This document shows, piece by piece, positions 18,675 to 36,423 of a stretch of DNA of 54,717 bases. The notes beneath the pieces were generated by a model. It searched no databases. It was not told the origin of the DNA and was given only the letters and a program-made list of their open reading frames with translations. The stretch's first letter is position 1, and each line of letters starts with the position of its first letter. The DNA comes from Sphingobacteriales bacterium 44-15. GTDB lineage: Bacteria > Bacteroidota > Bacteroidia > Chitinophagales > Chitinophagaceae. A program made the translations under genes and the position numbers. The stretch lies in contig MKWG01000028.1 in NCBI GenBank assembly GCA_001899685.1, forward strand, positions 1-54,717. Reading direction: 5' to 3'.

Positions 18675-20060
18675 CTAATCTCTGAACAACCCATTCAATA
18701 ACCTGGCAGCCGTTTCGACGATCTTGTACCCTGCATATGGCTCCAGCCTGCACCACGAAATGGGAGCCCCGGTATAACCTCCTCCAAGTATACCATAAAT
18801 GGTGGGGCAATACCCGCCATGCCCGTCTGTAAGTCCGACAACAGCGGTGGTTGAAGCCGGGCTGCGGCGTTTGATATCAAGCCCAAACTGACAGTATAGT
18901 TCGCAGGGTTCAGTCACTATTGCAAGTTCTCCTATGCGAACAGCATGCACAGGCAATATCTCAAAGGGATTATTGGTATAAAGTTCCTGCAAACGGATAG
19001 CTCCGTATGCCAGGATCGTTTCCATTATGCCAACATTTTCTCCCTTGTCAACGCGTGCCAGTATGCTGCGGCCTTCAATTAACTGTTCGGTGGATGGTGA
19101 ACGGAGGGCGACTTTTAAATCCTGGTAGTCATGCTTTAGCACAGGATCATCATCATAGGTTACTTTTTTATACAGCTCCATGGTTTTGCTGACTACCAGT
19201 TCGCTGACTCTTTTCAATTTCTCTTCCACTGTTTCCGTCCGGTGATCAAGCATATTTTCAATGGAAATATCGCCCTGGGCCCCGTTCAGGAAGAGCACGG
19301 GGATAGGGCTGCCGATCCTGTTGCGGATCATCTTTCTTACTTCTCCCGGAAAGTCGGCGGAATATACGCCTGCACCGTAAAAAATGGTGGGATGTGTTGT
19401 ATTGTTGTATAAAACAGCTAAGAGTTTGCCTTTCAGATCTGATGCAAACATGGCTAAATGCTGCGGATCAACCGGACCTTCCAACCCCGCAAAATCTTTT
19501 CTTTTGGTATCACCGTGCATGGTATGCGTACCGTCTGCCCAGGTCACCCGGCGGTTGAACCCGATCTGCACGTCCCCTTTCGCCCACCCGATCTTCCCCG
19601 GCCGGGCAGTTTTCACGGCTTCTGAAGCCAGATCCACCATCCATTGCTGAAGGCGTTCCATATATGCTGTATCCACCGGCATAATATAATTTGTCCTTAA
19701 CAGGGATGGACCCGCATGCGTATGTGTGCAGGATATTAATATATTGCGCGGGGAAATGCCGGCAGCAACTCCCATGGCTTCTCTCAGCCGGACAACAAAG
19801 GAAGATTCAAGCCCCACCAGGTCGCAACTGACCATTAATAACCGGAAGGTCCCTTTCGAGAAATACATAGCATTTGCTTCCAGGTTATCCCGAATCTGGG
19901 TAGCCCTGCGGAGGGTGCCCGCCCCCTGTACATAACTTCCTACTTCATTATTGATTATCCTGGTTGCAACACCTATCTTAAATACTTCCGGTTGTGCAAT
20001 ACCAAAATGTGTAAGCAATAAAAAAAAACAAATCAGAAGTGCAGTGCAATACTTATTCAT
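18675..20060 (-). CDS. Neutral/alkaline ceramidase-family hydrolase, N-terminal domain only
   Basis: Member of the neutral/alkaline non-lysosomal ceramidase superfamily (zinc amidohydrolases that cleave N-acyl bonds). The signal peptide MNKYCTALLICFFLLLTHFGIAQ is followed by the family N-terminus FKIGVATRIINNEVGSYVQG. The zinc-ligand segment SCTHTHAGPS carries His113 and His115; THPTIFYG supplies another His near 223. The motif GDIS at 263-266 corresponds to the catalytic Ser of characterised ceramidases. At 461 residues it is much shorter than ceramidases of about 650-700 residues and seems to lack the C-terminal domain. Such short paralogues are common in glycan loci of Bacteroidota, and their true substrates are mostly unknown. 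It lies between a sulfatase and an esterase. Confidence 0.82.
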   Translation of the reverse strand: MNKYCTALLICFFLLLTHFGIAQPEVFKIGVATRIINNEVGSYVQGAGTLRRATQIRDNLEANAMYFSKGTFRLLMVSCDLVGLESSFVVRLREAMGVAAGISPRNILISCTHTHAGPSLLRTNYIMPVDTAYMERLQQWMVDLASEAVKTARPGKIGWAKGDVQIGFNRRVTWADGTHTMHGDTKRKDFAGLEGPVDPQHLAMFASDLKGKLLAVLYNNTTHPTIFYGAGVYSADFPGEVRKMIRNRIGSPIPVLFLNGAQGDISIENMLDHRTETVEEKLKRVSELVVSKTMELYKKVTYDDDPVLKHDYQDLKVALRSPSTEQLIEGRSILARVDKGENVGIMETILAYGAIRLQELYTNNPFEILPVHAVRIGELAIVTEPCELYCQFGLDIKRRSPASTTAVVGLTDGHGGYCPTIYGILGGGYTGAPISWCRLEPYAGYKIVETAARLLNGLFRD

Positions 20061-20132: not shown

Positions 20133-21611
20133 TCATGGAATAAAGATGCTATCACGTGCTTTCAAATGCCTGGTCAGCTTTTCGTGAAGTCCCTCTACCA
20201 GCTTTTGATTTTCAGGTTTATCCGCCACATTTACGTTCTCCTCAGGATCAGTACGATGGTCATAGAGCATGCGGGCATAAGGTTGCCCTGTCTTATTATT
20301 GATCCATTCGGTATAAGCATGTGTTTTTGTCAAAATAGTTTCCCCCGTGCCGGCCCTGTAAAAAATGGATTCTTTCCAGGGAGCAGATGGATCATCAAGA
20401 AGGGGTGCCAGGCTTTTTCCCTGCAGATGGACCGGCAGGCTTAATCCGGCCAGTTCACAAAGCGTCGGATAAATATCCACGAACTCGACTAATGCAGAAG
20501 TATGGACATCTCCATTTTTCCAGGGCACTTTTACGATTAAAGGTGCGTGGGGACCTTTCTCCATATTGCTTTGCTTTGTCCAGAAACCATGCTCTCCAAG
20601 AAACCATCCGTGATCTCCCAAAAGCACTACTATCGTGTTTTCTGAAAGCCCAAGCTCTTCCAGTGCATTTAACACTATACCAATCTGCGCATCAACATAA
20701 CTTACACAGGCATAATAACCATGAATAAGATTAATAGCGGTGGTATCGGGCAAAGGACCGGAGGAAGGAATACCATAAAAAAATCTTAGTTCGGCCCAAT
20801 TAAGCCTTGCTATATCCGGAGCGTCTTTTGGGAAAAAATAGTTCGGGGGCAGCTTAAAATCTTTCTTTTTATACAGGTCCCAGTATTTTTTGGGAGCGTT
20901 GAACGGAAGATGAGGCTTTTTAAATCCCACTGCAAGAAAAAAAGGCTCGTCGCTGTTGCTGAAATTTTGTAATTCTTCGACAGCGCGGTTTGCAATTCTG
21001 CCGTCCTCATAGCTGATATCAGGAATATCAGGATCCTCATAAGCTGGTCCTCTCTGAGGCAGGTTATTATTATCGCGAACATGCTTGTCTTTATACCGCT
21101 CTTTGTTTCTTTCTTCAAAAACCCGGATACTTTCTTTTGATTGATAATCCCAGTTAGTAACGGGCGGGCGCCAGCTTTTCACCCAGCTTCCTTTCCCGTC
21201 TTCAAAATTATTGTAAACCTTGCCTAAAGAAACCGTTTGGTAGTTATTGTTTTTAAAATACATTGGCAGGCTTACGATTCCCGGTGCATCTTTATCCTGT
21301 GAAGCATTCCAGATAGCAAACCTTTTGGTACTTGGATATATGCCGCTTAATAAGGATGCCCTGGATGGCCCGCAAACCGGGTAATTAGCAAAAGCATTAT
21401 TGAAAACAATGCCCGACATAGCCAGGCGGTCAATATTGGGGGATTTTATCTGCGTTTTTCCATAGCAGCCGAGTTCCGGTCTCAGATCATCAACAACTAT
21501 AAAAAGAACATTCGGCCTGCTTTGCTTTAAAGGCTTCACCTGTGCAAAAACAAAAGATGTACACATAAATACCCCTGTCAGCAAAAAAAACTTATTTATA
21601 TTCATATACAT
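20133..21611 (-). CDS. Secreted sulfatase, iduronate-2-sulfatase-like
   Basis: Type I sulfatase predicted to remove sulfate esters from sugars in the periplasm. It has 492 residues with a signal peptide ending near VFAQ (about 24); a second ATG two codons downstream is equally possible. The metal-binding VVDD is at 39-42. The formylglycine motif is CGPSR at 80-84 (Cys80 modified, Arg84). GKVYN (Lys131), KKPHLPF (His234) and LGDHGW (Asp333/His334) complete the site. The overall pattern (NVLFIVVDDLRPELGCYG..., FLAVGFKKPHLPFNAPKKYWDLY) is that of iduronate-2-sulfatase-like (S1_7 type) enzymes. It differs clearly from the sulfatase at 198. It begins the sulfatase/ceramidase/esterase trio. Confidence 0.93.
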   Translation of the reverse strand: MYMNINKFFLLTGVFMCTSFVFAQVKPLKQSRPNVLFIVVDDLRPELGCYGKTQIKSPNIDRLAMSGIVFNNAFANYPVCGPSRASLLSGIYPSTKRFAIWNASQDKDAPGIVSLPMYFKNNNYQTVSLGKVYNNFEDGKGSWVKSWRPPVTNWDYQSKESIRVFEERNKERYKDKHVRDNNNLPQRGPAYEDPDIPDISYEDGRIANRAVEELQNFSNSDEPFFLAVGFKKPHLPFNAPKKYWDLYKKKDFKLPPNYFFPKDAPDIARLNWAELRFFYGIPSSGPLPDTTAINLIHGYYACVSYVDAQIGIVLNALEELGLSENTIVVLLGDHGWFLGEHGFWTKQSNMEKGPHAPLIVKVPWKNGDVHTSALVEFVDIYPTLCELAGLSLPVHLQGKSLAPLLDDPSAPWKESIFYRAGTGETILTKTHAYTEWINNKTGQPYARMLYDHRTDPEENVNVADKPENQKLVEGLHEKLTRHLKARDSIFIP

Positions 21612-21752: not shown

Positions 21753-22610
21753 TTACCTGTTTGCTGTCCCGGGCAACGATGCGAGCAGCGTGTCCAGGCT
21801 TTCCTTCACAGGCTTATTATCATGCACTATACCCATTAGTACTCTTGTAATGAGGGCAGGACTGGCATGCTGGATTATATTACGTCCATAAACAATTCCG
21901 CTTGCGCCCTGCTCCATTAGCTTTGATGTCCGGATAAGAATTTCCTCGTCACTGGCTTTGCTTCCTCCTCTGACCAGGACAGGCGTTGCACCGGCGATTT
22001 CAATCACACGGTGATAGTCATGAATATCAGTGGTTGGGTCAGCTTTGATAATATCCGCTCCGAGCTCAACTGCCTGCCTCACCAGAGGTAATATTTTTTT
22101 TATATCACCATCTACCATATAGCCTCCTTTTTCAATATTTGGCCTAAACACGAGCGGCTCTATCATCAGGGGCATACTGTAAAGATCCGATTCCACTTTT
22201 AATTTCAAAATATTGTCAATACATTGGGCTGTTACTTCAGGAGCGCCGGGAATGCTAAACAAATTAACACATAAGCAGGCGGCATCAGCACGTACGGCCT
22301 GTAGCACGGGCCGGCTGATCATCTTGCTGAAAGCGTGCACCGGCAGAGCGGCTCCATATACATTTGCAACATCAGTACGCAGCACAAGGGAGGGCTTTTG
22401 TTTGCCGGGTATAGACTGCAGATATTTTAATTGTCCCGGTGTTAATTGAATAGCATCCGGTCCTGCCTTAACAATGATTTCAACAGCAAATTGGATATTT
22501 TCTATTCCCTGCAAAAAATTCGCTTCGTTGAAAAAGCCATGATCTATGGCAACATCAAAACATTTGTTCGATACAGGATTAAAAAGCCTGTTAAGTCTGT
22601 ATTGTTTCAT
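21753..22610 (-). CDS. DhnA/LsrF-type class I aldolase
   Basis: Schiff-base aldolase of the DeoC/LacD/DhnA superfamily, expected to cleave a phosphorylated ketose or related sugar phosphate in the cytoplasm. It has 285 residues with no signal peptide. The N-terminal DVAIDHGFF (Asp23, His24) and the strand GADIIKADPTTD, with candidate Schiff-base Lys189, are typical. The phosphate-binding end LVRGGSK and ASGIVYGRNIIQH closely match the LsrF/FbaB-like pattern. It starts 10 bases after the aminotransferase stop and stands downstream of the PfkB kinase, so the likely order is isomerise, phosphorylate, cleave. Fructose-1,6-bisphosphate, tagatose-1,6-bisphosphate and 6-sulfofructose-1-phosphate aldolases use related folds, so the substrate cannot be named. 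Confidence 0.88.
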   Translation of the reverse strand: MKQYRLNRLFNPVSNKCFDVAIDHGFFNEANFLQGIENIQFAVEIIVKAGPDAIQLTPGQLKYLQSIPGKQKPSLVLRTDVANVYGAALPVHAFSKMISRPVLQAVRADAACLCVNLFSIPGAPEVTAQCIDNILKLKVESDLYSMPLMIEPLVFRPNIEKGGYMVDGDIKKILPLVRQAVELGADIIKADPTTDIHDYHRVIEIAGATPVLVRGGSKASDEEILIRTSKLMEQGASGIVYGRNIIQHASPALITRVLMGIVHDNKPVKESLDTLLASLPGTANR

Positions 22611-22619
22611 TGAAATACG

Positions 22620-24008
22620 TTATGCGCTATATCCAAATTCATGTTCAACTTCTGCAATTGCTTCCTCAATAATATCCATTCCCATTTTAGCATATTTCTC
22701 ATCCATGATCAGGGGTGGGGACATACGGAGGATATGCCCGGCGGGGATCCATGCCAGTCCTTTCCGGAAAGCTTTTTGATATACTAAATTGCCGGCTTCG
22801 GGAAAAGGTTCTTTTGTGCCTTTATCCTTTACCAGCTCTATACCCAACAAAAAACCTTTGCCTTTAACATCTCCGATAATGGGATGCTCTTCTTTCATCT
22901 TTTTCATCCGTGTCATAAAAAAATTGCCGACGGAACGAACATTTTCTAGGATATTTTCATCCTCAATTACTTCTATGGATGCCAGCGCCGCCGCGCAGGC
23001 CATCGGGTTGCCTCCATAACTTGATGACGCTGAAATTTTTTCGAGTGATCCGCCATTTTCTTCACTTACTACCATCGCTGTTACGGGAAACCCGTTACCA
23101 AACGACTTGCCGAAAGTCACAATATCAGGGGTCACACCCCAGTGGTTCAGGGTAAGCCACTCCCCGGTACGTCCCATGCCGGCCAATACTTCGTCGTCAT
23201 ACAGGAGAATACGATGCTTCTCACACAAGGATTTTAATTTCGGGAAGAAATCATCAGGGGGAAATATACTCCCCGCCCATCCCTGGGCAGGCTCTAAAAC
23301 AAATGCAGCTACATTCCCTACGGTTGCCTCAACTAAAAATTGTTCGTAAAAACGTATATAAGCGTCTGTATCAATGGTGCCGTCGGCCTTGCTCCAGAGA
23401 GGGCGATAAGGATCAGGACGTGGGACCATATAAAAACCCGCGGCTCTTGTTGGTCCATAACTAAATGTTTCCCCCCGATACATTTGGGCGCAACTTACCG
23501 CACCTAATGTTTTTCCATGGAAATCACGGTAAGCTGAAATGAATTCATGCTTTCCGCTGATAGCCCTTGCAGCCCGGATCGCGGCTTCTACGGCAGTAGT
23601 CCCATCGGAATATAACTGGATGGCATTTAATTTTCCCGGTAAAATGGCAGCCATCTTTTCCATCAGCTTTTCTTTTACCGGAGTAGAAAAATCATGTACA
23701 TTCATCAGCTTTTTTGCCCAATAGCAAATAGCCTCCGAAATTTTAGGATGACAGTGCCCCAGGGAAGCAACATAAATTCCTGATGAGAAATCAAGGTATT
23801 TATTTCCATCAACATCGGTTAAGGTAATACCAAAGCCTTCCCTGAAGCACACAGGAAAAAGCTTTACCTGGGAGCTGAGCCCCTTCATATACCTGGCAGT
23901 ATTAGCATGCATGATCCTTGATTTTGGTCCAGGTGTTTCTGTTATCAGATGAGGTATGCCTGCGGCGCTTTGTTTCCACCAGTCTGAAGATATGTTTAAG
24001 CTATCCAT
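22620..24008 (-). CDS. Class III PLP-dependent aminotransferase
   Basis: Omega-aminotransferase (4-aminobutyrate / ornithine / dialkylglycine family), cytoplasmic. It has 462 residues. Family features are visible in order: YLDFSSGIYVASLGHCHP (about 71-88), the PLP-phosphate-binding SDGTTAVEAAIRAAR (134-148), the HG pair in DFHGKTLG, the PLP-ring Asp in YDDEVLAGMGRTG (Asp272), and the Schiff-base Lys301 in TFGKSFGNGFP. It sits between the sugar kinase and the aldolase, 120 bases after the kinase stop and 10 bases before the aldolase. That is an unusual place for this enzyme class and suggests that an amino-sugar or an aldehyde/ketone intermediate is transaminated in the same pathway. The specific donor and acceptor are unknown. 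Confidence 0.9.
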   Translation of the reverse strand: MDSLNISSDWWKQSAAGIPHLITETPGPKSRIMHANTARYMKGLSSQVKLFPVCFREGFGITLTDVDGNKYLDFSSGIYVASLGHCHPKISEAICYWAKKLMNVHDFSTPVKEKLMEKMAAILPGKLNAIQLYSDGTTAVEAAIRAARAISGKHEFISAYRDFHGKTLGAVSCAQMYRGETFSYGPTRAAGFYMVPRPDPYRPLWSKADGTIDTDAYIRFYEQFLVEATVGNVAAFVLEPAQGWAGSIFPPDDFFPKLKSLCEKHRILLYDDEVLAGMGRTGEWLTLNHWGVTPDIVTFGKSFGNGFPVTAMVVSEENGGSLEKISASSSYGGNPMACAAALASIEVIEDENILENVRSVGNFFMTRMKKMKEEHPIIGDVKGKGFLLGIELVKDKGTKEPFPEAGNLVYQKAFRKGLAWIPAGHILRMSPPLIMDEKYAKMGMDIIEEAIAEVEHEFGYSA

Positions 24009-24066
24009 ACATATTGTTTAGTGATTTCTCAATTTTTTTGCAGTATTTCTGTTCCGGGAAAGGCTG

Positions 24067-24191
24067 CATTCCAAATTGTCGTTCCATGCCGGTTTTCCGG
24101 TCGGTTAAACACCGACCGGTAGCACGTTCTACAGGCGTGTGCCTGCCTGACCGGTAGGCAGGTCGCTACCCGCCTGCGGCAATTTGGAATG
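24067..24191. repeat. 125-bp MITE-like element with 12-bp terminal inverted repeats
   Basis: CATTCCAAATTG at 24067-24078 and its exact complement CAATTTGGAATG at 24180-24191 bound this segment. Inside are two hairpins: CCGGTCGGT/ACCGACCGG (24097-24105 and 24111-24119, 5-base loop) and CCTGCCT/AGGCAGG (24142-24148 and 24156-24162). The right half lies inside the 3' end of the PfkB kinase gene and supplies its last codons and stop. There is no coding capacity of its own and no obvious target-site duplication. It shares the GCCTGCC core with other elements in the window. Confidence 0.7.
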
Positions 24192-25355
24192 TGCTTCGTG
24201 TAAAGTATTGTCTCTTAAAAGTTTTAAATTGACTACTTCCACATGCTCAAGCTCTAAAGATTTATACATCTGTTCCCAGTTATCCAGTTCGTTGTAAATA
24301 TCAGAGCAGTATAAATTATTCCTGCCGGCCATGGTCGCAAATCTTAAGGAACGCTCCGGGCTTTCTCCATCAAGGATGGCTGATAAAAAGGCTGCTGAAG
24401 CTGTGTCGCCTGCACCAGAGGCATTTTTTACTTTGGTTTGATCAATGGGGTAGGCAGCACACCAGAGTTCCCGGTAGCTCCACTGTTCTTCCTGCAAATT
24501 CAAGCCGGGCCTTTCATTTAAAAGTGATACATCTCCCGTTGCCAGATATGCCCCGCGATGTCCTGCTTTTATGAATACAATTTTGGCCCCGGCATCAATG
24601 ATGCGCTTTCCTGCTTCCCGTATAGTTGCGATAGTAACCAGCTCAATAATATCAGAACCGCCGGCATTTAAATTTATTTCTGCATATTCTTCGGGCATCA
24701 TTATCTGAAGCGCTTCTTCAAGGCTCGGGACAAAAATGTCTGTATATGGCAGTATTCTTTTTATCGTTTCCGGCCAGTTTATTTTACCAGATTCGCTTTC
24801 AGGGTCTACCAGGCTAAAGTCGAGTGAGGTAACCACACCCATTCGCTGTACTACGGAAAATAACTCAAGCAGCTGAGCTCCTTCTTTCACATAAAACTGT
24901 TTTAACAGCGGCGGATACCCGAAATGAAACAACCTGCATTTTGCTACAACATCAAAATCAATATGCTTTATTCCGAATAAATGACTGCAGCCGGGCGACT
25001 CCAGGAAGATGCGATCCACACCCGGGAGCGCAATAACAAGCCCCAGGGCCGTGCCTTCGCCTTCAATCGTTCTTACGCCGGTTAAAAGGTCGCTTTGATC
25101 TAAGAACGTCAGGGCGATTTTCCCGGCAAAATCATTCCCGATCAATCCGTTCAAAAAAACGCTTTTCGAGAATTTTTTCATCGCCATCCCAACATTTGCC
25201 ACAGCGCCTCCCATTGCATAGGTAAGCCCGGCGATTTCTATTAATTTACCTGGTTTCAGAAGTTCGGAGATATTGGTAAATGATTTATTTGTTTTGAACT
25301 CAGGAGTCAGGTCAACGCAGATATATCCCGCAATAACAGCATCATATTTCTTCAT
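24129..25355 (-). CDS. PfkB-family sugar kinase with repeat-derived C-terminal tail
   Basis: ATP-dependent ribokinase-family kinase expected to phosphorylate the ketose made by the upstream isomerase. It has 408 residues. The N-terminal PfkB pattern (YAMGGAVANVGMAMKKF, NGLIGNDFAGK) and the C-terminal signature NASGAGDTASAAF, with catalytic Asp317, are clear. The family normally ends soon after the last helix; here the final residues, roughly from HEAHSKLPQAG to LPTGQAGTRL (about 386-408), are encoded by the GCCTGCC repeat element, which also provides the stop codon. The tail is therefore probably acquired and non-functional. The start lies 8 bases after the isomerase stop, indicating translational coupling. 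Substrate unknown. Confidence 0.9.
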   Translation of the reverse strand: MKKYDAVIAGYICVDLTPEFKTNKSFTNISELLKPGKLIEIAGLTYAMGGAVANVGMAMKKFSKSVFLNGLIGNDFAGKIALTFLDQSDLLTGVRTIEGEGTALGLVIALPGVDRIFLESPGCSHLFGIKHIDFDVVAKCRLFHFGYPPLLKQFYVKEGAQLLELFSVVQRMGVVTSLDFSLVDPESESGKINWPETIKRILPYTDIFVPSLEEALQIMMPEEYAEINLNAGGSDIIELVTIATIREAGKRIIDAGAKIVFIKAGHRGAYLATGDVSLLNERPGLNLQEEQWSYRELWCAAYPIDQTKVKNASGAGDTASAAFLSAILDGESPERSLRFATMAGRNNLYCSDIYNELDNWEQMYKSLELEHVEVVNLKLLRDNTLHEAHSKLPQAGSDLPTGQAGTRL

Positions 25356-25363
25356 GTCTGCAG

Positions 25364-26728
25364 TTAGATTACTTTAATATTTTTCAGATAACAGAAATCA
25401 GCTATTTTTTGAACATGATCTCCATAAACAAGTATATAATGCTGCCCGGAAATTTTTTGTGTGAACGCTTCCACAGGCGTATCAAGAAATATTTCCAGGC
25501 TTGGAAGCTGGGGCCCCGGCTGGTCCCAGCCCGCTTCTTCCCATGATCTGAATCTTCCTTCACCGGTACATACATGCATGGTATACTGGTCTGCAGTATT
25601 AGAAAGCCGCGCAATGGTGACCGGACCGGTTTTGACGGCCGAAATATTCAGCAATCCGCCGCTTATACCGCCAAAAGCTGCTCTTGTAACCTTTACTTTC
25701 CCGTCCACAATTTCGGAGGGAACAAAATCAGGCACTCCCATTAACACGCTTTCCTCCAGGAAGTCATAAAATTCTAAATAAGCCGCGCATTGGCCTGTAA
25801 GATGCTTAATGACCAGTTGGGTAACGGCTCCCATCGCATCATTCTCGGGAATGGTGCTTAGTTTCATCTCATCGGAAAGAAGCATGAAGATCATTGCCGG
25901 GGGATAATTCAGGATTTTTTTCATCCCGTCAACATCCTTCAATGATATTCCATCCAGATGATTACCCTCGGCAATTTTTTTAATGGCGAGATAATAAGCA
26001 ATCCCCCTTTTTAAGAACCCGTCTTCAACAGGTTTAACAAATTCCCATTCCTGTTTGAGCTTTCTCAGTACATTCAATATTTCGTTTTCTTCAACAGCTT
26101 CGCTCAGTTGCAGCATCTCGAGCATTTCAAAAAATTCAACTTCCACGCCCATTAAAGCTTTCAGCGAGAGCCCTTCATAAAGTGTATTATAAAGTTTCAT
26201 GTCGCGGTATCCAATCATACCTACCTTTGTATTTTCAATTGACTTTACTGCAGATGCGGCAATCCCAAAACTTCTTATTTTTTCCAGTGGAGATGGTTTT
26301 CCAATAATATTATAGAGGTATTTAAACTTATATCCCAAGTCTTCAAATACTTTCCGCAACGCAGTAGTACCAGCCTGGGCAGCAGCTGTAACAATACGCC
26401 CGTTTTCAATATGCCCTGCAAGCCCCCACAGGATCATTGGCTTTGCCTTGAACTCATTTGTAAGGGAAATAACGGCATGGGATGGGATCCAGCCGGCAAG
26501 GCAAATGATCAGTACATCAAAATCCTTTCTCTTAAATTGGTTTATAGCGTGTTTAACATCAGCTCCTTTTGGATCGTCTGTGATCACTTCTGTAGTTATG
26601 ATTTCAAATCCAAGAGACCTGACTTCTTCTAACGCAACCGAACACTTTTCCTTAATTAACGGAAGAGGAGAGTTTACTTCTCCAAATCCTGCAAAAGCAG
26701 CATTAACCAGAGCTTTCTTTTTTCCCAT
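25364..26728 (-). CDS. L-fucose/L-arabinose isomerase-like protein
   Basis: Cytoplasmic sugar isomerase of the FucI/AraA fold, predicted to interconvert an aldose and a ketose using a divalent metal. It has 454 residues. The N-terminal Rossmann-like part includes DVLIICLAGWIPSHAVISL, and the second domain begins near KVGMIGYRDM. The likely metal-binding Glu295 and Asp297 lie in IPENDAMGAVTQLVIKHLTG, the position of the E.D..G pattern of FucI-like proteins. It is shorter than E. coli FucI (about 590) and AraA (about 500), so it belongs to a separate, poorly characterised branch. It is followed directly by a PfkB kinase and preceded by an MFS sugar transporter. Some fucose-isomerase-like proteins are thought to isomerise sulfoquinovose, which is one option here. 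Confidence 0.82.
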   Translation of the reverse strand: MGKKKALVNAAFAGFGEVNSPLPLIKEKCSVALEEVRSLGFEIITTEVITDDPKGADVKHAINQFKRKDFDVLIICLAGWIPSHAVISLTNEFKAKPMILWGLAGHIENGRIVTAAAQAGTTALRKVFEDLGYKFKYLYNIIGKPSPLEKIRSFGIAASAVKSIENTKVGMIGYRDMKLYNTLYEGLSLKALMGVEVEFFEMLEMLQLSEAVEENEILNVLRKLKQEWEFVKPVEDGFLKRGIAYYLAIKKIAEGNHLDGISLKDVDGMKKILNYPPAMIFMLLSDEMKLSTIPENDAMGAVTQLVIKHLTGQCAAYLEFYDFLEESVLMGVPDFVPSEIVDGKVKVTRAAFGGISGGLLNISAVKTGPVTIARLSNTADQYTMHVCTGEGRFRSWEEAGWDQPGPQLPSLEIFLDTPVEAFTQKISGQHYILVYGDHVQKIADFCYLKNIKVI

Positions 26729-26765
26729 TAGTGTAAATAATTTTCAATGTAACGACACTGCCAGT

Positions 26766-26890
26766 GCTGTGTCAACAATAATTTTTCGTATTTCTTTGTG
26801 AGAGGTGAGACTTGCCTACCGGTTTACCTGCCGTAGGCATGACAGGCAGGCGATAAATGTGAGACATTCCTTTCACTTCTCACATTTATC
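26766..26890. repeat. Dispersed palindromic repeat, copy 2
   Basis: Same element as 9496-9593 (92 of 98 bases identical over 26766-26863), followed by a perfect 13-bp hairpin: GATAAATGTGAGA (26852-26864) with TCTCACATTTATC (26878-26890). It occupies most of the 268-base gap between the MFS transporter and the isomerase. It would fold strongly in the transcript, and may separate expression of the transporter from that of the isomerase-kinase genes. Confidence 0.8.
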
Positions 26891-26996
26891 CTCTCACTGT
26901 TCACGATAACATACAGACATAATTAGCTTGACTTGGCACCGGAAGCCCAGGCATGTCTCAGCCTCGCATCGTAGTCAAATTTTATTTTGAATTTTC

Positions 26997-28202
26997 TTAA
27001 ACTATTATACTTCGGTTTTTACTCACATGTACATTATTGACGACCGCTACAAAGAGCAAATAAAGGATACATACAACCGGCACCAGAAAAGCGGTTTGGA
27101 TGGAGGCGCCGTCTGCAACCACTCCCATCACCGGAGGAATAAAAGCGCCTCCTGTTATAGCCGATACCATTAAGCCCGATAGCTCATTGGCATGATCGGG
27201 CATGTATTCTATAGTTATTGAAAATAAAAGAGGAAAAATATTCGCAAACCCCAATCCAATAACAAAAATCCCAAACAGCGTTAACACAAACGAATTGCTG
27301 AAGATCAGCGTAAAACCCAAAAATGAAAATAAAACAGTAAATAACAATAATCGTGTGGGTGCTATCCGCGACATGATCCATGCCCCCAAAAACCTGCCGG
27401 ACAGGATAGGCAGGTAAAAAAGCGACCAGCCGATCAGTAAACCTATTTTCTCGACGGATACATTATACTTTTCCTTTAGTAAAATTGGTACATAAGCACT
27501 CATCGATATTTCAATCCCGCAATAAATAAAGATGCCGACAACCATAATCAATATGTAACTATTCTTAAGGAGCCTGAAGCATGATCTGACCGTCGCATGT
27601 TTATCTGTATCATTTCCTTCCCGGATGCGAAGCATGTTCAACCATATAATGCCGGTTAAAACAATTCCTGCAAAAACCGGGAATAGTATGCTCCAATCCA
27701 GGCCGAACGCACGAAGCATGATGACAGGAAGAAGAAAACCCAGCGAAGAACCTACAGTAATGAAAGACTGTGCAAACGACAGATTTCTGGAATACTGACC
27801 CGGTTCGGAAAAATCCCGCATGATCGGATTTCCGGAAACCTGGAGAATAGCGCCACCCGCTCCCAACATGAGGATCGCTGCCAGTATCTTATAAAATTGA
27901 GATAAGGAGCTGTGATCAATTATCATTTTCCCGGACATCCCCGATATAATGGGAATGAAAAGCCCGGCGAGAGCAATTGACAGCCCCAGGTTCATAATGA
28001 ATTTTTTCCCTTTTTTATCTTGTAACAAACCTGTGGGTATTGAGAGCAGACCATACATCATGTAGCCTAACATCGGCAGCAAGGATGCTATTGTTGTTGA
28101 TATTTTAAATGATTCTTTAGCCAGGCTGACCATGGGTCCTACTGAATCAATGAGCCCCATCGTCAAAAAGATCATATAAACCGGCAACGTCCTTATTTTC
28201 AT
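26997..28202 (-). CDS. MFS transporter, sugar/proton symporter type (FucP-like)
   Basis: Inner-membrane permease of the major facilitator superfamily. It has 401 residues, and about 12 hydrophobic segments can be traced, beginning with VYMIFLTMGLIDSVGPMVSL. The loop 2-3 motif reads GLLQDKKGKKFIMNLGLSIALAG, the usual D..GRR/K pattern. The GGAILQVSGNPIMRDF segment resembles FucP-type transporters, which have a conserved Asn/Pro there. It is placed between the large secreted enzyme and the isomerase, so it most likely imports the monosaccharide released by the secreted enzymes for the isomerase-kinase-aldolase pathway. The exact sugar is not readable from sequence. Confidence 0.88.
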   Translation of the reverse strand: MKIRTLPVYMIFLTMGLIDSVGPMVSLAKESFKISTTIASLLPMLGYMMYGLLSIPTGLLQDKKGKKFIMNLGLSIALAGLFIPIISGMSGKMIIDHSSLSQFYKILAAILMLGAGGAILQVSGNPIMRDFSEPGQYSRNLSFAQSFITVGSSLGFLLPVIMLRAFGLDWSILFPVFAGIVLTGIIWLNMLRIREGNDTDKHATVRSCFRLLKNSYILIMVVGIFIYCGIEISMSAYVPILLKEKYNVSVEKIGLLIGWSLFYLPILSGRFLGAWIMSRIAPTRLLLFTVLFSFLGFTLIFSNSFVLTLFGIFVIGLGFANIFPLLFSITIEYMPDHANELSGLMVSAITGGAFIPPVMGVVADGASIQTAFLVPVVCILYLLFVAVVNNVHVSKNRSIIV

Positions 28203-28445: not shown

Positions 28446-30728
28446 TTATCGTTTTATCCGGTCAAGGAGATAGTTGCAATTGATGACTTTTTCAACAAGG
28501 TCCTGCTGAACGTAATAATATTGATTTGAAGCTTCGTAACCGATCCGGGAATCTCTGCTGCATATTTCAAACAATTCAGAAGCAAGCTGTATTTCCTGTT
28601 TTAATATACGGCGCAACTCTTCCCTGAGCCTGGTTTTATCTGATAATGAGAGATTATTCGCCAATAGCTTATCCCGGTCAACAACGTAGGCAACCTGATT
28701 GGCAACCGAAGCAAAATGTAAATATGCTGCCTGAGCAATATCCTCATCAGACGTGGCATTGGCCCGATGTAAGCTGTCGGACAAGACAACTATCTGTTTA
28801 AAGTACTTAAGTCCCTCAAGCCAACCGTCAGCAACCTTTTTGAACTGTTGCATAAAAATGTTCTCAGGGTATATGCCTTTCCAGCTTTTCAGGTCATCAT
28901 AAGGAAACCCGACCATCGTAGCCTTATACCCTGTCGGTTGTTCATACAGCAAATTTGCAGGTCCATATTGTTGTGGGGCGGTGTATAACGTGCCGCCGCT
29001 ATACGGATATTGTTCAAATGCATTGCTGAATGCCGTCCATGCCTTACGCGCTGCCTTTACAGCAGGCTTCCCGTACCTTTCTCCGGCAAGGTCATTCAAT
29101 ACTTCCTCCCTTGAAAGTTCGGGATGATTTGAGATACGGTCGGCAATTTCCAGGTTGGGAGAAGGATAGCCTCCAAGGGACCAGCTCAGCATCAGCCCGT
29201 CTGTTTTTGCATCTGAAAGCGCTGACATATGGCGTGCAACAAGATCCGGCACCGGCAGCCAGGGAACAGAAGAAAGCTCCCATGTATTGTTGACCTGCAC
29301 CTTGGCAATTGTTTTCAGTCCTCTCTCTTTTGCCCATTTCCAGTGCTGTAATGCCCTTGGCCCCGGACCTACCGCAGACATGGAGTATTCGCCCACTTCT
29401 GAGGACACACCTCCACGCTCAACCGGCTTGGCCCATTCGCTGACAGACATAAGATATACATCATCGGGCAAAGCAGCAATTACATCCGGCGCAAGCCCGT
29501 GATTATGCCAGCCCCAATCCCATACTATTACTTTTGCATCAGGATTACCTTTATGAACACCTTCTTCTATAGTACGGTTTACCCCGGCTATAATTTCAGC
29601 ATAGCTTCTCCTGCTGCAACGCTCGCAGCCCTTCTGATTTCCATGTGATGCGCAATTGGTAAAATTTTCTGAAGCTGTTATTGTCAGTACGCCTCCCAAT
29701 CCGGGCACACCCGAAAAAACATATGCCAGCGCGTCTCTCATCCATTGTTGAACTTCTTTACTGCTGGTGCACATGGCATAATAGTTTCCTTCTTTTGTAC
29801 CCCTTACCTGTTCTCTGTTAATAAAAAAGCCAGCATCCATTGCCCTCGGTTCATTAATGTACAGGTAAATGTCTATACCATATCGCTTGGCCCGGGCAAC
29901 GATCCTGTTCAGATTTTGAATACGTAAAGCGTGCCCTGACCCGAATTCAGGAAATGCAGCGCCGCCCGGGGCAATTTGATTCAAAACCACATGCATCCAT
30001 ATTCCATTCACCCCGCTTTGAGCCAGCTTTTCCAGCAGGCCATCCGGGTACAGATCCTGCAGCGTATCAGAAAGAGGATCGCCATAGGTGCCAAAATAGG
30101 AATAAACAAGCCTCAGACCCCTGTCCTTGCCCGGCTGATAAACATTTTCATTTTTTTTCCCGGAAGCATACTTTAGCTCCTCAACAAACTGAAAGGGAGT
30201 GCAGGTATTTTGCCCCCGAAAATACTGTTGGGCAATATGTTTTATTTTTAAAGCGCCCCTGATCGCTTTTTTATCCGGGGCGGTATACTTCAGCTCCTCA
30301 ATCTCAGGTTTTAGGTTGCCGAGCTTGATGAACAAACCATCATCCTCCTTTAATGCAACGGACAGTTCATTACTATTCATGTTAAGCAGCGTAAGCAATT
30401 GAGCGTAGGGTAATAAATGCCAGTTTCTTCTTATAACGGTTATATATATACGCCGGTCAAAGCCGGGTTCTTTAGGTTGATAAGAAGGGAGCCCCATGGA
30501 GGATGCTATTTTAATAATATCCAAAGCATTGCACCCTATTGTTCTGCCCATTGTTTCGGGACTGACAAGATTCCAGTTTCTCCATACAAAAGCGTGTACC
30601 CTGTCGGGAAAATGTGGCACCGGTATGGCCTGTGGATGGCTTCCCAAAGGCAACACGCCTTCCTGGCCTGAGGCAACCTTACAGCACAGCAACCCCAGGA
30701 TCATTAAAAAGGAAATCGTTGTTTTCAT
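28446..30728 (-). CDS. Large secreted TIM-barrel-like putative glycosidase, family unassigned
   Basis: I do not recognise a named family. The frame opens at 30794, but the ATG at 30728 gives a signal peptide (MKTTISFLMILGLLCCKVASGQ) and about 760 residues, 49 bases after the preceding gene. The N-terminal part (MGRTIGCNALDIIKIASSMG..., RRNWHLLPYAQLLTLLNM) is a conserved-looking domain. The middle looks like a (beta/alpha)8 glycosidase: GVNGIWMHVV, AKRYGIDIYLYINEPRAMD, GVLTITASENF, KVIVWDWGWHNHG, LMLSWSLGGYPSPN. A Cys/His cluster (Cys359, His362, Cys368, Cys371 from the chosen start) follows the candidate acidic residue Glu354. The C-terminal third is helical. Its neighbours, a GH109-like protein and a sugar permease, support a role in glycan breakdown, but this is an inference. 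Confidence 0.7.
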   Translation of the reverse strand: MKTTISFLMILGLLCCKVASGQEGVLPLGSHPQAIPVPHFPDRVHAFVWRNWNLVSPETMGRTIGCNALDIIKIASSMGLPSYQPKEPGFDRRIYITVIRRNWHLLPYAQLLTLLNMNSNELSVALKEDDGLFIKLGNLKPEIEELKYTAPDKKAIRGALKIKHIAQQYFRGQNTCTPFQFVEELKYASGKKNENVYQPGKDRGLRLVYSYFGTYGDPLSDTLQDLYPDGLLEKLAQSGVNGIWMHVVLNQIAPGGAAFPEFGSGHALRIQNLNRIVARAKRYGIDIYLYINEPRAMDAGFFINREQVRGTKEGNYYAMCTSSKEVQQWMRDALAYVFSGVPGLGGVLTITASENFTNCASHGNQKGCERCSRRSYAEIIAGVNRTIEEGVHKGNPDAKVIVWDWGWHNHGLAPDVIAALPDDVYLMSVSEWAKPVERGGVSSEVGEYSMSAVGPGPRALQHWKWAKERGLKTIAKVQVNNTWELSSVPWLPVPDLVARHMSALSDAKTDGLMLSWSLGGYPSPNLEIADRISNHPELSREEVLNDLAGERYGKPAVKAARKAWTAFSNAFEQYPYSGGTLYTAPQQYGPANLLYEQPTGYKATMVGFPYDDLKSWKGIYPENIFMQQFKKVADGWLEGLKYFKQIVVLSDSLHRANATSDEDIAQAAYLHFASVANQVAYVVDRDKLLANNLSLSDKTRLREELRRILKQEIQLASELFEICSRDSRIGYEASNQYYYVQQDLVEKVINCNYLLDRIKR

Positions 30729-30777
30729 ACCAAAAATTTTGATTTCATTGACATCTTCTCGATACAGACAGACCACT

Positions 30778-32139
30778 TCAGATGGAAAAATCATCCTGCA
30801 GCCCGAACACAGGTGTTCTTCCTTTCCATTTTCCTCTTGTAAAGTCGGGTACTAAAACCGGCTGTGATCCTTTTGCTATAGATCTTTCCGAGAGCGGGCG
30901 TAGTACCGACCACATGGCTGCATCATATACATCCATCAAAAAGGGTTTCCTGTTGATCACACAATCTACAAACTCTCTGACTATAAAATAGTCCATGCCT
31001 CCATGACCCGAGGATTCCGCTTTAGCGCCATATTTTTTCCAGTAAGGATGATCGTACTCGCTGAAATATTTTTCTGCGGGTTCATATTGGTGGGCGCGGG
31101 GTGAATGTTTCTGGAGATAGATACCGTTAGTGTCTTCGGTCCAGATACCATCGCTCCCCTGTATACGAAAGCCTAAGGAATACGGTCTGGGAGAACAGGT
31201 ATCAAAAGTCATTTTTATTACTTCCCCGTTCACGCATTTAATCAGGCTGGTAACTACGTCCCCGCACTTGAATTTTACTTTGGCATTGGGATGGGAAGCA
31301 CCCCCGTTTTCAACAATATACTGATGTAATCCTATAGCGGGGGAAGCCATGGATACCAGTTGTGCAAATTGGTTTCCCCGGGTGATATTTAACATATTGG
31401 ATACCGGCCCTACGCCATGTGTAGGATACATATCCCCATTATTTGTTACATAATGCGGTGTTCTCCACTTTGCTTCATTAATTCCTTTTTCCCCGAATTC
31501 AACACCATGTCCGGTCATGTGCTGTCCGTCATTGAATAAGACCTCTCTCAGGTCATGCTGATACCCGCATTCCGTATAGGTAATATCACCGAACAAATGC
31601 TTTCTTGCCATGTTCAATACAGCCATTACGTCTCTCCTGTAACACACATTCTCCATCATCATATAGGGTGTACCGGTTTTTTCCTGCAAATTTACCAGCT
31701 CCCATATTTGCGGCACAGTTAGTCCGGCCATCACTTCGCAGCCTGTATACTTTCCGGCTTTCAGGCTTGCAAGGGACATGGGCAAATGCCATTCCCACGG
31801 AGTGGCTATAATTACAGCATCTACATCATCTCTTGTTACAATCCTTTCGAAATCATTTTCCTTTAGATAGTAATCCGGTTCTCCTGATCCGGCATCTTTA
31901 ATGATCTGCTTTGCATTATTGATAGCGATCTCATTAATATCGCTAATGGCTACTATGTCACTATGCCCCTGTGATACTGCTTCTTTCAGCAAACCGCTCC
32001 CTCTCATACCTACACCAATAAAGGCAAGCCTGGCCTTTGGCGACTGTTTTTTTGTTCCCGTTAATATCATTTTATCCTGAAAGACTGCAGCTCCGGCCCC
32101 GATAATAGTGGCATGGGCTATAAATTCTCCTCTGTTCAT
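30778..32139 (-). CDS. Gfo/Idh/MocA-family protein of the GH109 type
   Basis: Protein of the GH109 group, in which a bound NAD cofactor drives glycosidic-bond cleavage by a redox-elimination mechanism; characterised members are alpha-N-acetylgalactosaminidases. It has 453 residues. The nucleotide-binding loop is FIGVGMRGSGLL (Gly42, Gly44, Gly47). The segments PTHGVGPVSNMLNITRGNQF, HGGMDYFIVREFVDCVI and DVYDAAMWSVLRPLSERSIAKGSQPVLVPDFTRG are the GH109-like core. The N-terminus MNRGEFIAHATIIGAGAAV looks like a Tat signal in which the twin Arg has become Arg-Gly, so export is uncertain. It is followed closely by the unassigned secreted enzyme. A simple sugar dehydrogenase is the alternative. 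Confidence 0.82.
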   Translation of the reverse strand: MNRGEFIAHATIIGAGAAVFQDKMILTGTKKQSPKARLAFIGVGMRGSGLLKEAVSQGHSDIVAISDINEIAINNAKQIIKDAGSGEPDYYLKENDFERIVTRDDVDAVIIATPWEWHLPMSLASLKAGKYTGCEVMAGLTVPQIWELVNLQEKTGTPYMMMENVCYRRDVMAVLNMARKHLFGDITYTECGYQHDLREVLFNDGQHMTGHGVEFGEKGINEAKWRTPHYVTNNGDMYPTHGVGPVSNMLNITRGNQFAQLVSMASPAIGLHQYIVENGGASHPNAKVKFKCGDVVTSLIKCVNGEVIKMTFDTCSPRPYSLGFRIQGSDGIWTEDTNGIYLQKHSPRAHQYEPAEKYFSEYDHPYWKKYGAKAESSGHGGMDYFIVREFVDCVINRKPFLMDVYDAAMWSVLRPLSERSIAKGSQPVLVPDFTRGKWKGRTPVFGLQDDFSI

Positions 32140-32321: not shown

Positions 32322-33395
32322 CTACTTCCAGGCATTGCGTAAAAATCTCAGCCAGTTGCCATGAAAGATATTTTCGATATCACTTTGAGCATATCCCCGC
32401 TTTGCAAGTAACCCTTTCAACTGCTGCAGATCAGCAATAGTGTCTATGTCACAGGGTGATTGCTCCAGCCCGAACATACCATCCAGGTCGCTGCCTATGG
32501 CTATATGATTGCTGTTGCCCGCGATCTGGCAAATATGATCGTAATGGTCGATCAATGTATCAAGTGTAATATTTTCTTCTTTGGGATCATGTTTGCCACG
32601 TATCCAGCCTGGCATCAGCATCCAGGTGTCCAGCACTCCGCCAATCACGGCATTCCGCTCTATCAATATTTTTATCTGTTCATCGGTGAGCTGGCGCTGG
32701 TGCGGAACTAATGCCCTGCAATTATGATGGCTCGCCCATATATGACCTCTGAATAGATCAACTGTCTGCCGGAATGCTTTATCCGTAAGGTGGGTAACAT
32801 CAAGAATAATATTCAGCTCTTCCATCCTTTTTAACAGCGCTACGCCTTCCTGCGTTAAGGGGCCTTCCATGCCTGTGCCGGGCGAATATCGTCCGGGACC
32901 ATAATGCGCAGGCCCGAGTGCACGCAGGCCATTCTGCCATGCTCTTTCAAGACAGGAGAGGTTGACAAGCGAATCCGCGCCTTCAAGGCTGAGTATAAAA
33001 CCCACCGGCTTTTTTTCATCGCTAATAGCATCATTATTCCATAGTTGAATATGCTTTTCCAGTTCCTGCAGGTTGGTAATCTGTACCATTTCTCCTTCGG
33101 CTGCCATGGCTTTATACCATGCGAGCTGTCCCTGCGTTTGCGCCCAGGCCTGCTCCGGCGAATGCCAGCCGGGAAGCGTACTGTCTTCCGCTACATATCT
33201 TGCGATCTGCGTGGCAACTACAAGTCCTATTTTTCCTTTTCTTAATTCAGGCAATGATACCGTGCCTTTGCCTCGGTCTGGTTTGTCGGTAAGGTTTTTT
33301 TCTCTTGCTCTTATATCCGTTGCCGTTCGTTTAAGATCCCGGTTCCATTCAAGGGCATTCATTGAAAGATCAAGATGCGCGTCGATGATCAACAT
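32322..33395 (-). CDS. Peptidase M19 (membrane/renal dipeptidase family)
   Basis: Zinc dipeptidase-family protein. It has 357 residues and starts MLIIDAHLDL, the metal-binding H.D motif (His7, Asp9). The bridging Glu is in SLEGADSL, further ligands lie in LDVTHLTDKAF and ASHHNCRALVPHQRQLTD, and the terminal Asp is in IAIGSDLDGMFG. No signal peptide is visible, so it is probably cytoplasmic. Family members hydrolyse dipeptides (often with a D-amino acid), some lactams and some lactones. The start follows the dehydrogenase stop by a single base, so the two are translationally coupled. The presence of an M19 enzyme in a sugar locus is unexplained; a lactonase-like or amide-cleaving role is possible. 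Confidence 0.92.
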   Translation of the reverse strand: MLIIDAHLDLSMNALEWNRDLKRTATDIRAREKNLTDKPDRGKGTVSLPELRKGKIGLVVATQIARYVAEDSTLPGWHSPEQAWAQTQGQLAWYKAMAAEGEMVQITNLQELEKHIQLWNNDAISDEKKPVGFILSLEGADSLVNLSCLERAWQNGLRALGPAHYGPGRYSPGTGMEGPLTQEGVALLKRMEELNIILDVTHLTDKAFRQTVDLFRGHIWASHHNCRALVPHQRQLTDEQIKILIERNAVIGGVLDTWMLMPGWIRGKHDPKEENITLDTLIDHYDHICQIAGNSNHIAIGSDLDGMFGLEQSPCDIDTIADLQQLKGLLAKRGYAQSDIENIFHGNWLRFLRNAWK

Positions 33396-35236: not shown

Positions 35237-35302
35237 ATAATTAGTATTTTTTGATTTCACTATTTATTGCAATAGTAAAAACTGTACATCATATTTCCTT
35301 TA

Positions 35303-35316
35303 GACAACCGGTTGTC
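35303..35316. promoter_or_regulatory. LacI-family operator 1 (GACAACCGGTTGTC)
   Basis: Perfect 14-bp palindrome with a central CCGG, the symmetry expected of a LacI/PurR-type site. It lies 67 bases upstream of the SDR ATG and 79 bases upstream of the lacI-like ATG, between the two divergent genes. The centre is 27 bp from that of operator 2, so the two sites lie 2.5 helical turns apart. Confidence 0.75.
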
Positions 35317-35330
35317 CGAAAAAAATCAGC

Positions 35331-35342
35331 ACAACCGGTTGT
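35331..35342. promoter_or_regulatory. LacI-family operator 2 (ACAACCGGTTGT)
   Basis: Perfect 12-bp palindrome, identical to the core of operator 1; the outermost pair differs (C...C instead of G...C). It lies 53 bases upstream of the ATG of the regulator gene, so autoregulation is likely. The paired sites support control of both divergent transcripts by one regulator. Confidence 0.75.
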
Positions 35343-35394
35343 CTTATTATTTAGCTTCATCTTCTTTTCTGTAACTTTAAAGAAATACGATTTT

Positions 35395-36423
35395 ATGACA
35401 CCGCGGAAGGTCACAATTATTGATATTGCCAAACGACTTAATATTTCGAAGTCTACGGTGTCCAGGGCGCTAAGCAACCATCATAGCATTGGGCTACGGA
35501 CTAAAATGCGTGTAACGCAACTGGCATCAGAATTAAATTATGAACCTGACAACAGAGCGATCTTTTTTAAGCAACGTAAAACATATCTGATCGGCCTGAT
35601 ATTACCTTCCTTATCCAATACTTTTTTTGCATCCATAGTAAGCGGCGTTGAAGACGTAGCATATCAAAAAAAATACACACTGCTGCTTGGACAATCAAGA
35701 GATGACCAGGAAAGAGAAAAAAGTATTGTAGAAACAATGAAAAATCATCGCGTGGATGGCATGCTCGTATCTATTTCAAAAAGCACTACCAGTTATGAAC
35801 ATTTTAAACTACTGGAAAAAAACAATATACCCGTAGTATTTATTGACAGGATACCTGAAATGAAAAATATTCATTTTATAGCCTGCAAGCTGGAAAATGG
35901 TATGATAGAAGCCGTAAGTTTTTTAGTTAAACAAGGACATAAGATAATTGGATTGATTAACGGGCCTGAAAACTTTTCCGCCAGTAAGGAACGTTACAGC
36001 GCTTACCTGAAGGCGCTAAGGAAAAATAAAATAAAGCCCGATAAAAAATTAATTACCTGTTCCGATCTTACAATTGACGGGAATGTAGCAGCTTCAAAAA
36101 AGCTACTGGCACTCGCCAGGCGGCCAACTGCAATAATAACTTTTAATGACTATGTGGCCCTGGACGCAATAGACTACTGCAAACGGCAAAAGATAAGGAT
36201 AGATAAGGATATAAGTTTTGTAAGTTTTGCCAATGAGGCTATTTGTAATTATATGGATCACCCTCCAATAGCATCGGTAGAACAATTTCCCTATCAGCAG
36301 GGGCAAAAAGCCACCGAAATGCTGATAGAGATTATTGAAAAAGCAAAACCGGAAAACGAAAATAAAAAGACGTTCAACAATTTATTACTGCAATCCCAGC
36401 TCGTTATCCGCGGAACCCATTAA
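35395..36423 (+). CDS. LacI-family transcriptional regulator
   Basis: DNA-binding regulator. The frame is open from 35251, but the residues before Met49 are not LacI-like. The ATG at 35395 puts the helix-turn-helix at the N-terminus (VTIIDIAKRLNISKSTVSRALSNHHSIG), as expected, and gives 342 residues. The periplasmic-binding-protein-like effector domain begins at TYLIGLILPSLSNTFFASIVSGVEDVA. Typical later motifs are NIPVVFIDRIPE and ISFVSFANEAICNYMDHPPIASVEQFPYQQGQKATEML. Two palindromic operators lie just upstream. The divergent layout with the SDR gene suggests that it represses the left block until a sugar or sugar phosphate is present. Confidence 0.95.
   Translation: MTPRKVTIIDIAKRLNISKSTVSRALSNHHSIGLRTKMRVTQLASELNYEPDNRAIFFKQRKTYLIGLILPSLSNTFFASIVSGVEDVAYQKKYTLLLGQSRDDQEREKSIVETMKNHRVDGMLVSISKSTTSYEHFKLLEKNNIPVVFIDRIPEMKNIHFIACKLENGMIEAVSFLVKQGHKIIGLINGPENFSASKERYSAYLKALRKNKIKPDKKLITCSDLTIDGNVAASKKLLALARRPTAIITFNDYVALDAIDYCKRQKIRIDKDISFVSFANEAICNYMDHPPIASVEQFPYQQGQKATEMLIEIIEKAKPENENKKTFNNLLLQSQLVIRGTH

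Follow-up and report, generated by a model that had tools for sequence, protein, structure and literature searches.

A conserved isomerase, kinase and aminotransferase cassette of Chitinophagaceae and its possible role in the catabolism of an N-acylated amino sugar

Which sugar is handled by a cassette in which a class III aminotransferase stands between a sugar kinase and an aldolase? This question is raised by five genes of Sphingobacteriales bacterium 44-15 (Chitinophagaceae, Bacteroidota; assembly GCA_001899685.1), located on a stretch of 54,717 nucleotides, hereafter the window, which is contig 28 (MKWG01000028.1, positions 1 to 54,717) of a 6.0 Mb genome. An earlier note on this DNA had described a FucP-like permease, a short FucI/AraA-like isomerase, a PfkB kinase, a class III aminotransferase (here AT3) and a DhnA-type aldolase on one strand between positions 21753 and 28202, and all five open reading frames (ORFs) are found there on the minus strand. 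The spacing of 8-10 bases claimed for two of the junctions holds for isomerase-PfkB (8 bases) and AT3-aldolase (9 bases), with the remaining gaps being wider (PfkB-AT3 120 bases, permease-isomerase 268 bases). We consider it just about probable that the cassette constitutes a catabolic route for an N-acylated amino sugar which carries a hydroxyl at C2 and its nitrogen elsewhere on the chain.

The gene order of the cassette is kept in relatives from other genera to an extent beyond chance. Within 294 genomes of the family, the isomerase was found in eight (at 1e-10) and AT3 in nine, the eight all being among the nine. Among 395 genomes of the phylum, neither an isomerase orthologue outside the window's genome (other matches are 21-26% identical) nor, at 1e-100, an AT3 beyond the window's own was found, and a plasmid search returned one isomerase match of 25% over half the length and no AT3 at 1e-90. 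A scan with a single protein of one genome each for 84,980 species, by which close relatives only are detectable, yielded 19 isomerase loci at 46-96% identity in Bacteroidota, Spirochaetes, Terriglobia and Planctomycetes. The order isomerase-PfkB-AT3 is present in every Bacteroidota isomerase locus examined with the exception of L056, where the contig ends after PfkB. AT3 lies inside the locus in six of the 19 (L048-L051, L053 and L058) and is encoded, at 61-89% identity, in 11 of the 13 genomes of the remaining loci, in four phyla. This recurrence of the aminotransferase with homologous cassettes agrees with the single pathway proposed in the earlier note. In addition, the pairwise distances of isomerase and AT3 are correlated (Spearman 0.85 for 66 pairs from 12 taxa, uncorrected for the species tree and with a second isomerase in L064 excluded). 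In detail, 17 loci were tabulated; L031-L042, L044, L048-L051, L053 and L058, which are near relatives or duplicates or else represent empty stretches, entered a separate similarity comparison only, and in the GC-rich loci L060 and L064 the gene calls may miss genes under long opposite-strand ORFs.

AT3 is a full class III aminotransferase with Lys301 as its presumed pyridoxal 5'-phosphate (PLP) lysine, K301 being among 225 residues that are invariant in 12 sequences, the window's included. Among solved structures, AT3 comes nearest to amino-acid racemases and to a hypothetical 4-aminobutyrate aminotransferase, as would be expected if AT3 were an amino-acid racemase or a general transaminase of nitrogen metabolism which has been co-inherited with the cassette by chance. 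This we hold to be improbable, as AT3 forms a discrete family (nine orthologues at 81-100% within the 294 family genomes, the next match being at 35%), all nine AT3 family genomes have the aldolase and eight of them the isomerase, and class IV or divergent class III enzymes substitute for it beside a Gfo/Idh gene, as described below.

The Pfam signal of the isomerase consists of a sub-threshold match to Fucose_iso_C alone (19.3 against 29.3 bits). An AlphaFold2 model built from 17 sequences (predicted local distance difference test score, pLDDT, 87) was compared using Foldseek and matched L-arabinose isomerases best (E 1.6e-24, whole length), followed by D-arabinose and L-fucose isomerases, with TM-scores of 0.70-0.80 for AraA and 0.56-0.79 for FucI depending on whether query or target length is used. 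By its predicted structure the protein is thus a three-domain AraA/FucI-fold isomerase, which bears out the initial assignment. Of the two residues pointed out earlier, Glu295 is invariant in the 17 aligned sequences (window included), and Asp297 is almost invariant, with one sequence masked at this position. Glu295 and Glu319 align with two glutamates of AraA in a profile alignment, and His430 is nearly invariant; Glu295, Glu319 and His430 are candidate metal or catalytic residues. The permease is FucP/GluP-like, as had been noted, yet falls short of the cut-offs of both named models (gluP 85 bits, fucP 78 bits).

Next to FGGY-type kinases, two spirochaetes (L064 3522-4850; L091 9663-11015; 67% mutual identity) encode isomerases of a second family with 33% identity to that of the window, which suggests a sister pathway. 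Genes for URO-D/MtaA-like methyltransferases (L064 11344-12609; L065 3307-4923, the latter by 41% similarity) adjoin the isomerase in one spirochaete and lie a few genes off in another, and could point to a methylated sugar.

At E 0.001 the isomerase has a single NCBIfam match, to sulfoquinovose isomerase (SftI). Two sulfatases are indeed present in the window, for which reason the earlier note had recommended a sulfated or sulfonated sugar for testing. Some GH188 clusters are reported to include fucose-isomerase genes (PMC11465081). A sulfoquinovose-type or sulfated-sugar route is nevertheless very improbable, because the SftI match reaches 47 of the 700 bits required by model NF048012 and the most conserved partner in the cassette is an aminotransferase; in a text search of a sulfoquinovose review, 'aminotransferase' occurs in a reference title only and 'transaminase' is absent (PMC12890257). 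Orthologues of the cassette sulfatase are confined to near relatives, with relatives of 29% and 45% identity in L043 and L063. The Pfam scan covered 34 of the 35 window ORFs of at least 150 aa and reported no GH31 family for them, in line with the absence of a GH31 sulfoquinovosidase noted before, nor was a sulfonate-specific family seen in these 34 ORFs, to which the search was confined within the genome. Moreover, sulfatases act on sulfate esters and not on C-sulfonates.

The kinase belongs to the PfkB family in the Bacteroidota isomerase loci, and its GAGD motif (G314-A-G-D317) is invariant in 11 sequences. In L059 (Spirochaetaceae) and in L060 (Terriglobia) the isomerase has an FGGY gene as its neighbour instead, and L061, L063, L064 and L091 also contain FGGY genes (family scans for the L060 and L064 genes, similarity for the others). 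The kinase has thus been replaced non-orthologously between PfkB and FGGY with its function kept. As to the window gene itself, matches to PfkB proteins of relatives extend only to residue 368-394 of 408, and the 3' end overlaps a GC-rich palindromic repeat, CTGCCTACCGGTCAGGCAGG (minus strand, window 24110-24185), which affects the last ~20 residues. The pattern is found a single time in the window, where 0.01 occurrences would be expected, and the residues added by it are unmatched in the PfkB of most relatives.

Among named models, the aldolase matches best those of 2-amino-3,7-dideoxy-D-threo-hept-6-ulosonate (ADH) synthase (117 bits) and of the LsrF-type thiolase (NF006081, 101 bits). The scores remain far under the family cut-offs (117 of 241, 101 of 297 and 110 of 299 bits), which argues for a separate subfamily. 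The nearest PDB entries are MJ0400 and LsrF, and Lys189, singled out in the earlier note, aligns with their corresponding lysine and is likely the Schiff-base residue. The GG and GRN motifs presumably form the phosphate site; at the position of the acid/base tyrosine of archaeal class I aldolases, no tyrosine is present. The substrates of LsrF and MJ0400 are phosphorylated dicarbonyls, and this use of dicarbonyls by the nearest named families is counted in favour of the pathway proposed below.

An orthologue of this aldolase was found in three of the 13 more distant isomerase genomes. In L052, L054, L055 and L078 a Gfo/Idh gene lies directly 3' of AT3. Across 22 cassette-bearing genomes, 12 have the aldolase (the three distant ones and nine in which it was seen in the loci), nine have a Gfo/Idh orthologue (at least 52% identity, a threshold of our own setting), none has both and one, the short-contig metagenome-assembled genome (MAG) G680, has neither. 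All nine Gfo/Idh orthologues share a gene cluster with an aminotransferase, namely AT3 in G675-G678, AT3 and a class IV enzyme in G683, a class IV enzyme in G684 and a divergent class III enzyme in G682, G685 and G686 (family scan for G685, 56-71% similarity for the others), so that the aminotransferase is likewise swapped across clusters. The mutual exclusion of aldolase and Gfo/Idh fits two ways of handling one and the same AT3 product.

A spirochaete cluster (L089 8204-12315) combines an AraA-like isomerase and a Gfo/Idh gene with a class III aminotransferase of the divergent type. It has a DeoR-like regulator and an FGGY-type kinase alongside and is apparently a parallel version of the logic of the window cassette.

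The distribution of the aldolase also bears on a different role for AT3, in which a nitrogen-free sugar would be isomerised, phosphorylated and cleaved. AT3 would then transaminate what cleavage yields, either an aldehyde, as considered in the earlier note, or a keto acid, and an amino alcohol or a beta-amino acid could result. Terminal aldehydes are common substrates of class III enzymes, and the genes for AT3 and the aldolase adjoin in the window. However, AT3 is kept in 11 of the 13 distant genomes and the orthologue of this aldolase in three (unrelated aldolases lay outside the search), and neighbours of the N-deacetylase and NagB-like types recur. Product transamination is therefore disfavoured, and we regard it as unlikely though deserving of attention.

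Removal of an N-acyl group would call for an amide hydrolase, and ceramidases act by amide hydrolysis. Six loci (L043, L045, L046, L047, L057 and L066) have a gene for a ceramidase-family protein between those for AT3 and the aldolase. Of the nine family genomes with AT3, four have this in-cassette form (55-73%) and six have a relative of the L057 protein at 1e-20, as compared to none of 31 control genomes, which were hand-picked and not random. As judged by eye, the proteins of L043, L047, L057 and L066 have no evident signal peptide, and the window's own ceramidase-family protein has an apparent one. A relative in L092 passes the Pfam Ceramidase_alk cut-off with 43.9 bits.

Elsewhere in the window's genome, a group of genes (L070 9489-15743) comprises a ceramidase-family gene (497 aa) together with a sulfatase and an esterase which are 69% and 55% identical to the neighbours of the cassette, and represents a partial duplicate of its downstream part.

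Related clusters hold further genes of amino-sugar metabolism. G658 is the one AT3 family genome in which the isomerase was not matched (at 1e-10, genome-wide). Here AT3 and the aldolase are accompanied by NagA (246 bits, cut-off 226) and by weakly NagB-like, ceramidase-like, SDR and aldo-keto reductase genes, and an FGGY-type kinase is encoded a short distance away; within 35 kb around AT3 and aldolase no PfkB match was obtained. The clusters around aldolase paralogues in G417 and G660 contain Gfo/Idh and PfkB genes, PIG-L (with 88.8 bits in L094, and recognised by similarity in L095) and a gene whose product is related, at 25% identity, to the NagB-like protein of G658. A further aminotransferase-like gene lies nearby (class III by Pfam in L095). 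The corresponding cluster of G687 consists of aldolase, Gfo/Idh and a PfkB-like gene only. An uncontrolled search of the window's own genome for NagB-like genes found nothing. The occurrence in relatives of NagA, PIG-L, NagB-like and ceramidase-like genes next to AT3 and the aldolase lends indirect support to the amino sugar that the earlier note had suggested. The content of G658 would also suit a diamino or 2-amino sugar, for which the AraA-like isomerase would carry out a NagB-like isomerisation and deamination and AT3 would take the second amine. This is quite improbable in our opinion, as the NagB-like protein scores low (58 of 237 bits) and we know of no AraA/FucI-fold enzyme that deaminates at C2.

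For the catabolism of an N-acylated amino sugar, the following pathway is proposed. The permease would import the N-acyl amino sugar, the acyl group of which would be removed by an amide hydrolase, candidates for which are the ceramidase-family protein of many cassettes and, in related clusters, NagA or PIG-L. The isomerase would then convert the aldose to the 2-ketose, which may be phosphorylated by PfkB, or elsewhere by FGGY, and AT3 would transaminate the sugar amine to a carbonyl, giving a phosphorylated dicarbonyl compound that could be cleaved by the DhnA/LsrF-like aldolase. In other lineages, Gfo/Idh might reduce the new carbonyl so that an ordinary aldolase can act. The C2 hydroxyl is postulated in order that an AraA/FucI-type isomerase can act. 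From the observed gene content, order and linkage, the folds or families and the swaps of parts we infer the substrate, the position of the amine, the order of the steps and that AT3 removes nitrogen rather than adding it. With the amine at C4, AT3 would yield a 3-hydroxy-2,4-dione phosphate, the type of compound cleaved by LsrF, possibly to dihydroxyacetone phosphate (DHAP) and an acyl-CoA; for an amine at C3, the Gfo/Idh and aminotransferase pairs of amino-sugar biosynthesis would provide the precedent. Rather doubtful, and offered tentatively, is the specific form of a 3-/4-amino-sugar glycolysis across Bacteroidota, Spirochaetota, Acidobacteriota and Planctomycetota, in which an amino-ketose phosphate would be turned by a PLP enzyme into a diketone and then be subject to LsrF-like cleavage or to Gfo/Idh reduction.

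Several observations weigh against the proposed pathway. As to its distribution, a single genus supplies five of the nine family genomes with AT3, so that these are not independent events, and the 13 distant genomes were selected by the isomerase, with AT3 in the absence of the isomerase having been sought in the family and phylum samples only. AT3 was not found in two of these 13 (G682 and G684); in both, another aminotransferase adjoins a Gfo/Idh gene, which is still in keeping with a single pathway, but this cluster is on a different contig from the isomerase. The aldolase orthologue was not found in ten of the 13, mostly MAGs in which some absences are possibly gaps, the alternation of aldolase and Gfo/Idh largely tracks lineage, and Gfo/Idh relatives at 47-50% adjoin the aldolase paralogues of G417, G660 and G687. 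As to the amide hydrolase, the in-cassette proteins of L057 and L043 reach 19.7 and 21.4 bits against the Ceramidase_alk cut-off of 32.1, those that were scanned lack, as judged by eye, a histidine present in the window's family member, and an amidase activity for them is a guess. The window moreover is without the in-cassette form, a distant copy being found elsewhere in its genome. Finally, the relative of the G658 NagB-like protein in L094 has no Pfam match, and the joint presence of a NagB-like gene and AT3 in G658 would be superfluous for a sugar with a single amine.

The features of the window are listed in Table 1. On the minus strand, the genes are transcribed in the order SDR, HADH-like, M19 hydrolase, GH109-type Gfo/Idh, 782-aa protein, permease, isomerase, PfkB, AT3, aldolase, sulfatase, ceramidase-family protein and esterase. 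The Gfo/Idh neighbour with a GH109 domain is found in near relatives with the exception of L042 and L051; N-acetylgalactosaminidase activity has been described for a GH109 enzyme (PMC10755693). The 782-aa protein is 83-90% conserved among near relatives, where it is directly 5' of the permease, and may be a new glycosidase-like enzyme. It has no Pfam or NCBIfam match, and a PDB sequence search gave chance-level matches only. Its AlphaFold2 model, obtained from five sequences of 83-90% identity including itself, was unusable (pLDDT 40). A 660-aa neighbour in L045 has no match in Pfam or PDB.

Table 1. Features of the cassette and its surroundings, in coordinates of the window.
Feature	Position	Strand	Basis
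Second window sulfatase	198-1637		
Ceramidase-family protein, putative pathway part, possible N-deacylase	18675-20060	-	Ceramidase_alk, weak (26.7 bits, cut-off 32.1)
Sulfatase adjoining the cassette	20133-21611	-	Pfam, 148 bits
DhnA/DeoC-type class I aldolase	21753-22610	-	Pfam DeoC, 107 bits
Class III aminotransferase AT3	22620-24008	-	Pfam Aminotran_3, 305 bits
PfkB-family sugar kinase	24129-25355	-	Pfam, 89 bits (88.8; cut-off 25.8)
AraA/FucI-fold aldose-ketose isomerase (predicted)	25364-26728	-	Predicted structure, Foldseek, profile alignment to AraA, conservation
FucP/GluP-like MFS sugar permease	26997-28202	-	MFS_1, 141 bits
Unassigned 782-aa protein, 5' of permease	28446-30794	-	No family match
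Gfo/Idh protein with GH109 C-terminal domain	30778-32139	-	Glyco_hydro_109_C, 266 bits
M19 dipeptidase-family hydrolase	32322-33395	-	Pfam, 160 bits; matches in near relatives only
LacI-family regulator, divergent from the cluster	35251-36423	+	Pfam LacI, 44 bits; Peripla_BP_1, 87 bits

Bacterial surface glycans commonly contain amino sugars whose nitrogen is at a position other than C2, and to our knowledge no route for the degradation of such sugars has been described. None of the matches listed in our literature search, which left many subscription papers aside, describes this gene set. As the enzyme set is small, conserved and swappable, with a recurring aminotransferase, the question can be addressed with a few purified enzymes. 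If the proposed pathway is true, functions would follow for the isomerase, the aminotransferase, the aldolase subfamily and possibly the ceramidase-like family, all of which are without a specific annotation at present.

The logic of isomerisation, phosphorylation and cleavage is shared with the sulfo-Embden-Meyerhof-Parnas (sulfo-EMP) pathway and with pathways of the fucose and tagatose type; in contrast to these, the cassette has an aminotransferase as its most conserved partner, its aldolase is optional and the scanned window ORFs include no sulfonate-specific family. Among individual enzymes, LsrF and the ADH synthase MJ0400 are the nearest named relatives of the window aldolase and share its conserved lysine, the difference lying in the family scores given above. 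The catabolism of amino sugars by NagA/NagB and by the Aga system for N-acetylgalactosamine likewise joins amide hydrolysis and amine removal to a kinase and an aldolase, and the G658 variant cluster holds NagA and a NagB-like gene as in Nag catabolism. The cassette differs in that the amine appears to be removed by PLP-dependent transamination instead of by a NagB or AgaS deaminase, and in that its isomerase is AraA/FucI-like. Adjacent genes for a Gfo/Idh protein and a PLP-dependent aminotransferase, which interconvert hydroxyl, carbonyl and amino groups, are also known from the biosynthetic pairs NtdC/NtdA and WbpB/WbpE, although the aminotransferase classes are different. Here, however, such genes travel with an isomerase, a kinase and a transporter of the catabolic type, suggesting that the direction is probably reversed with respect to biosynthesis.

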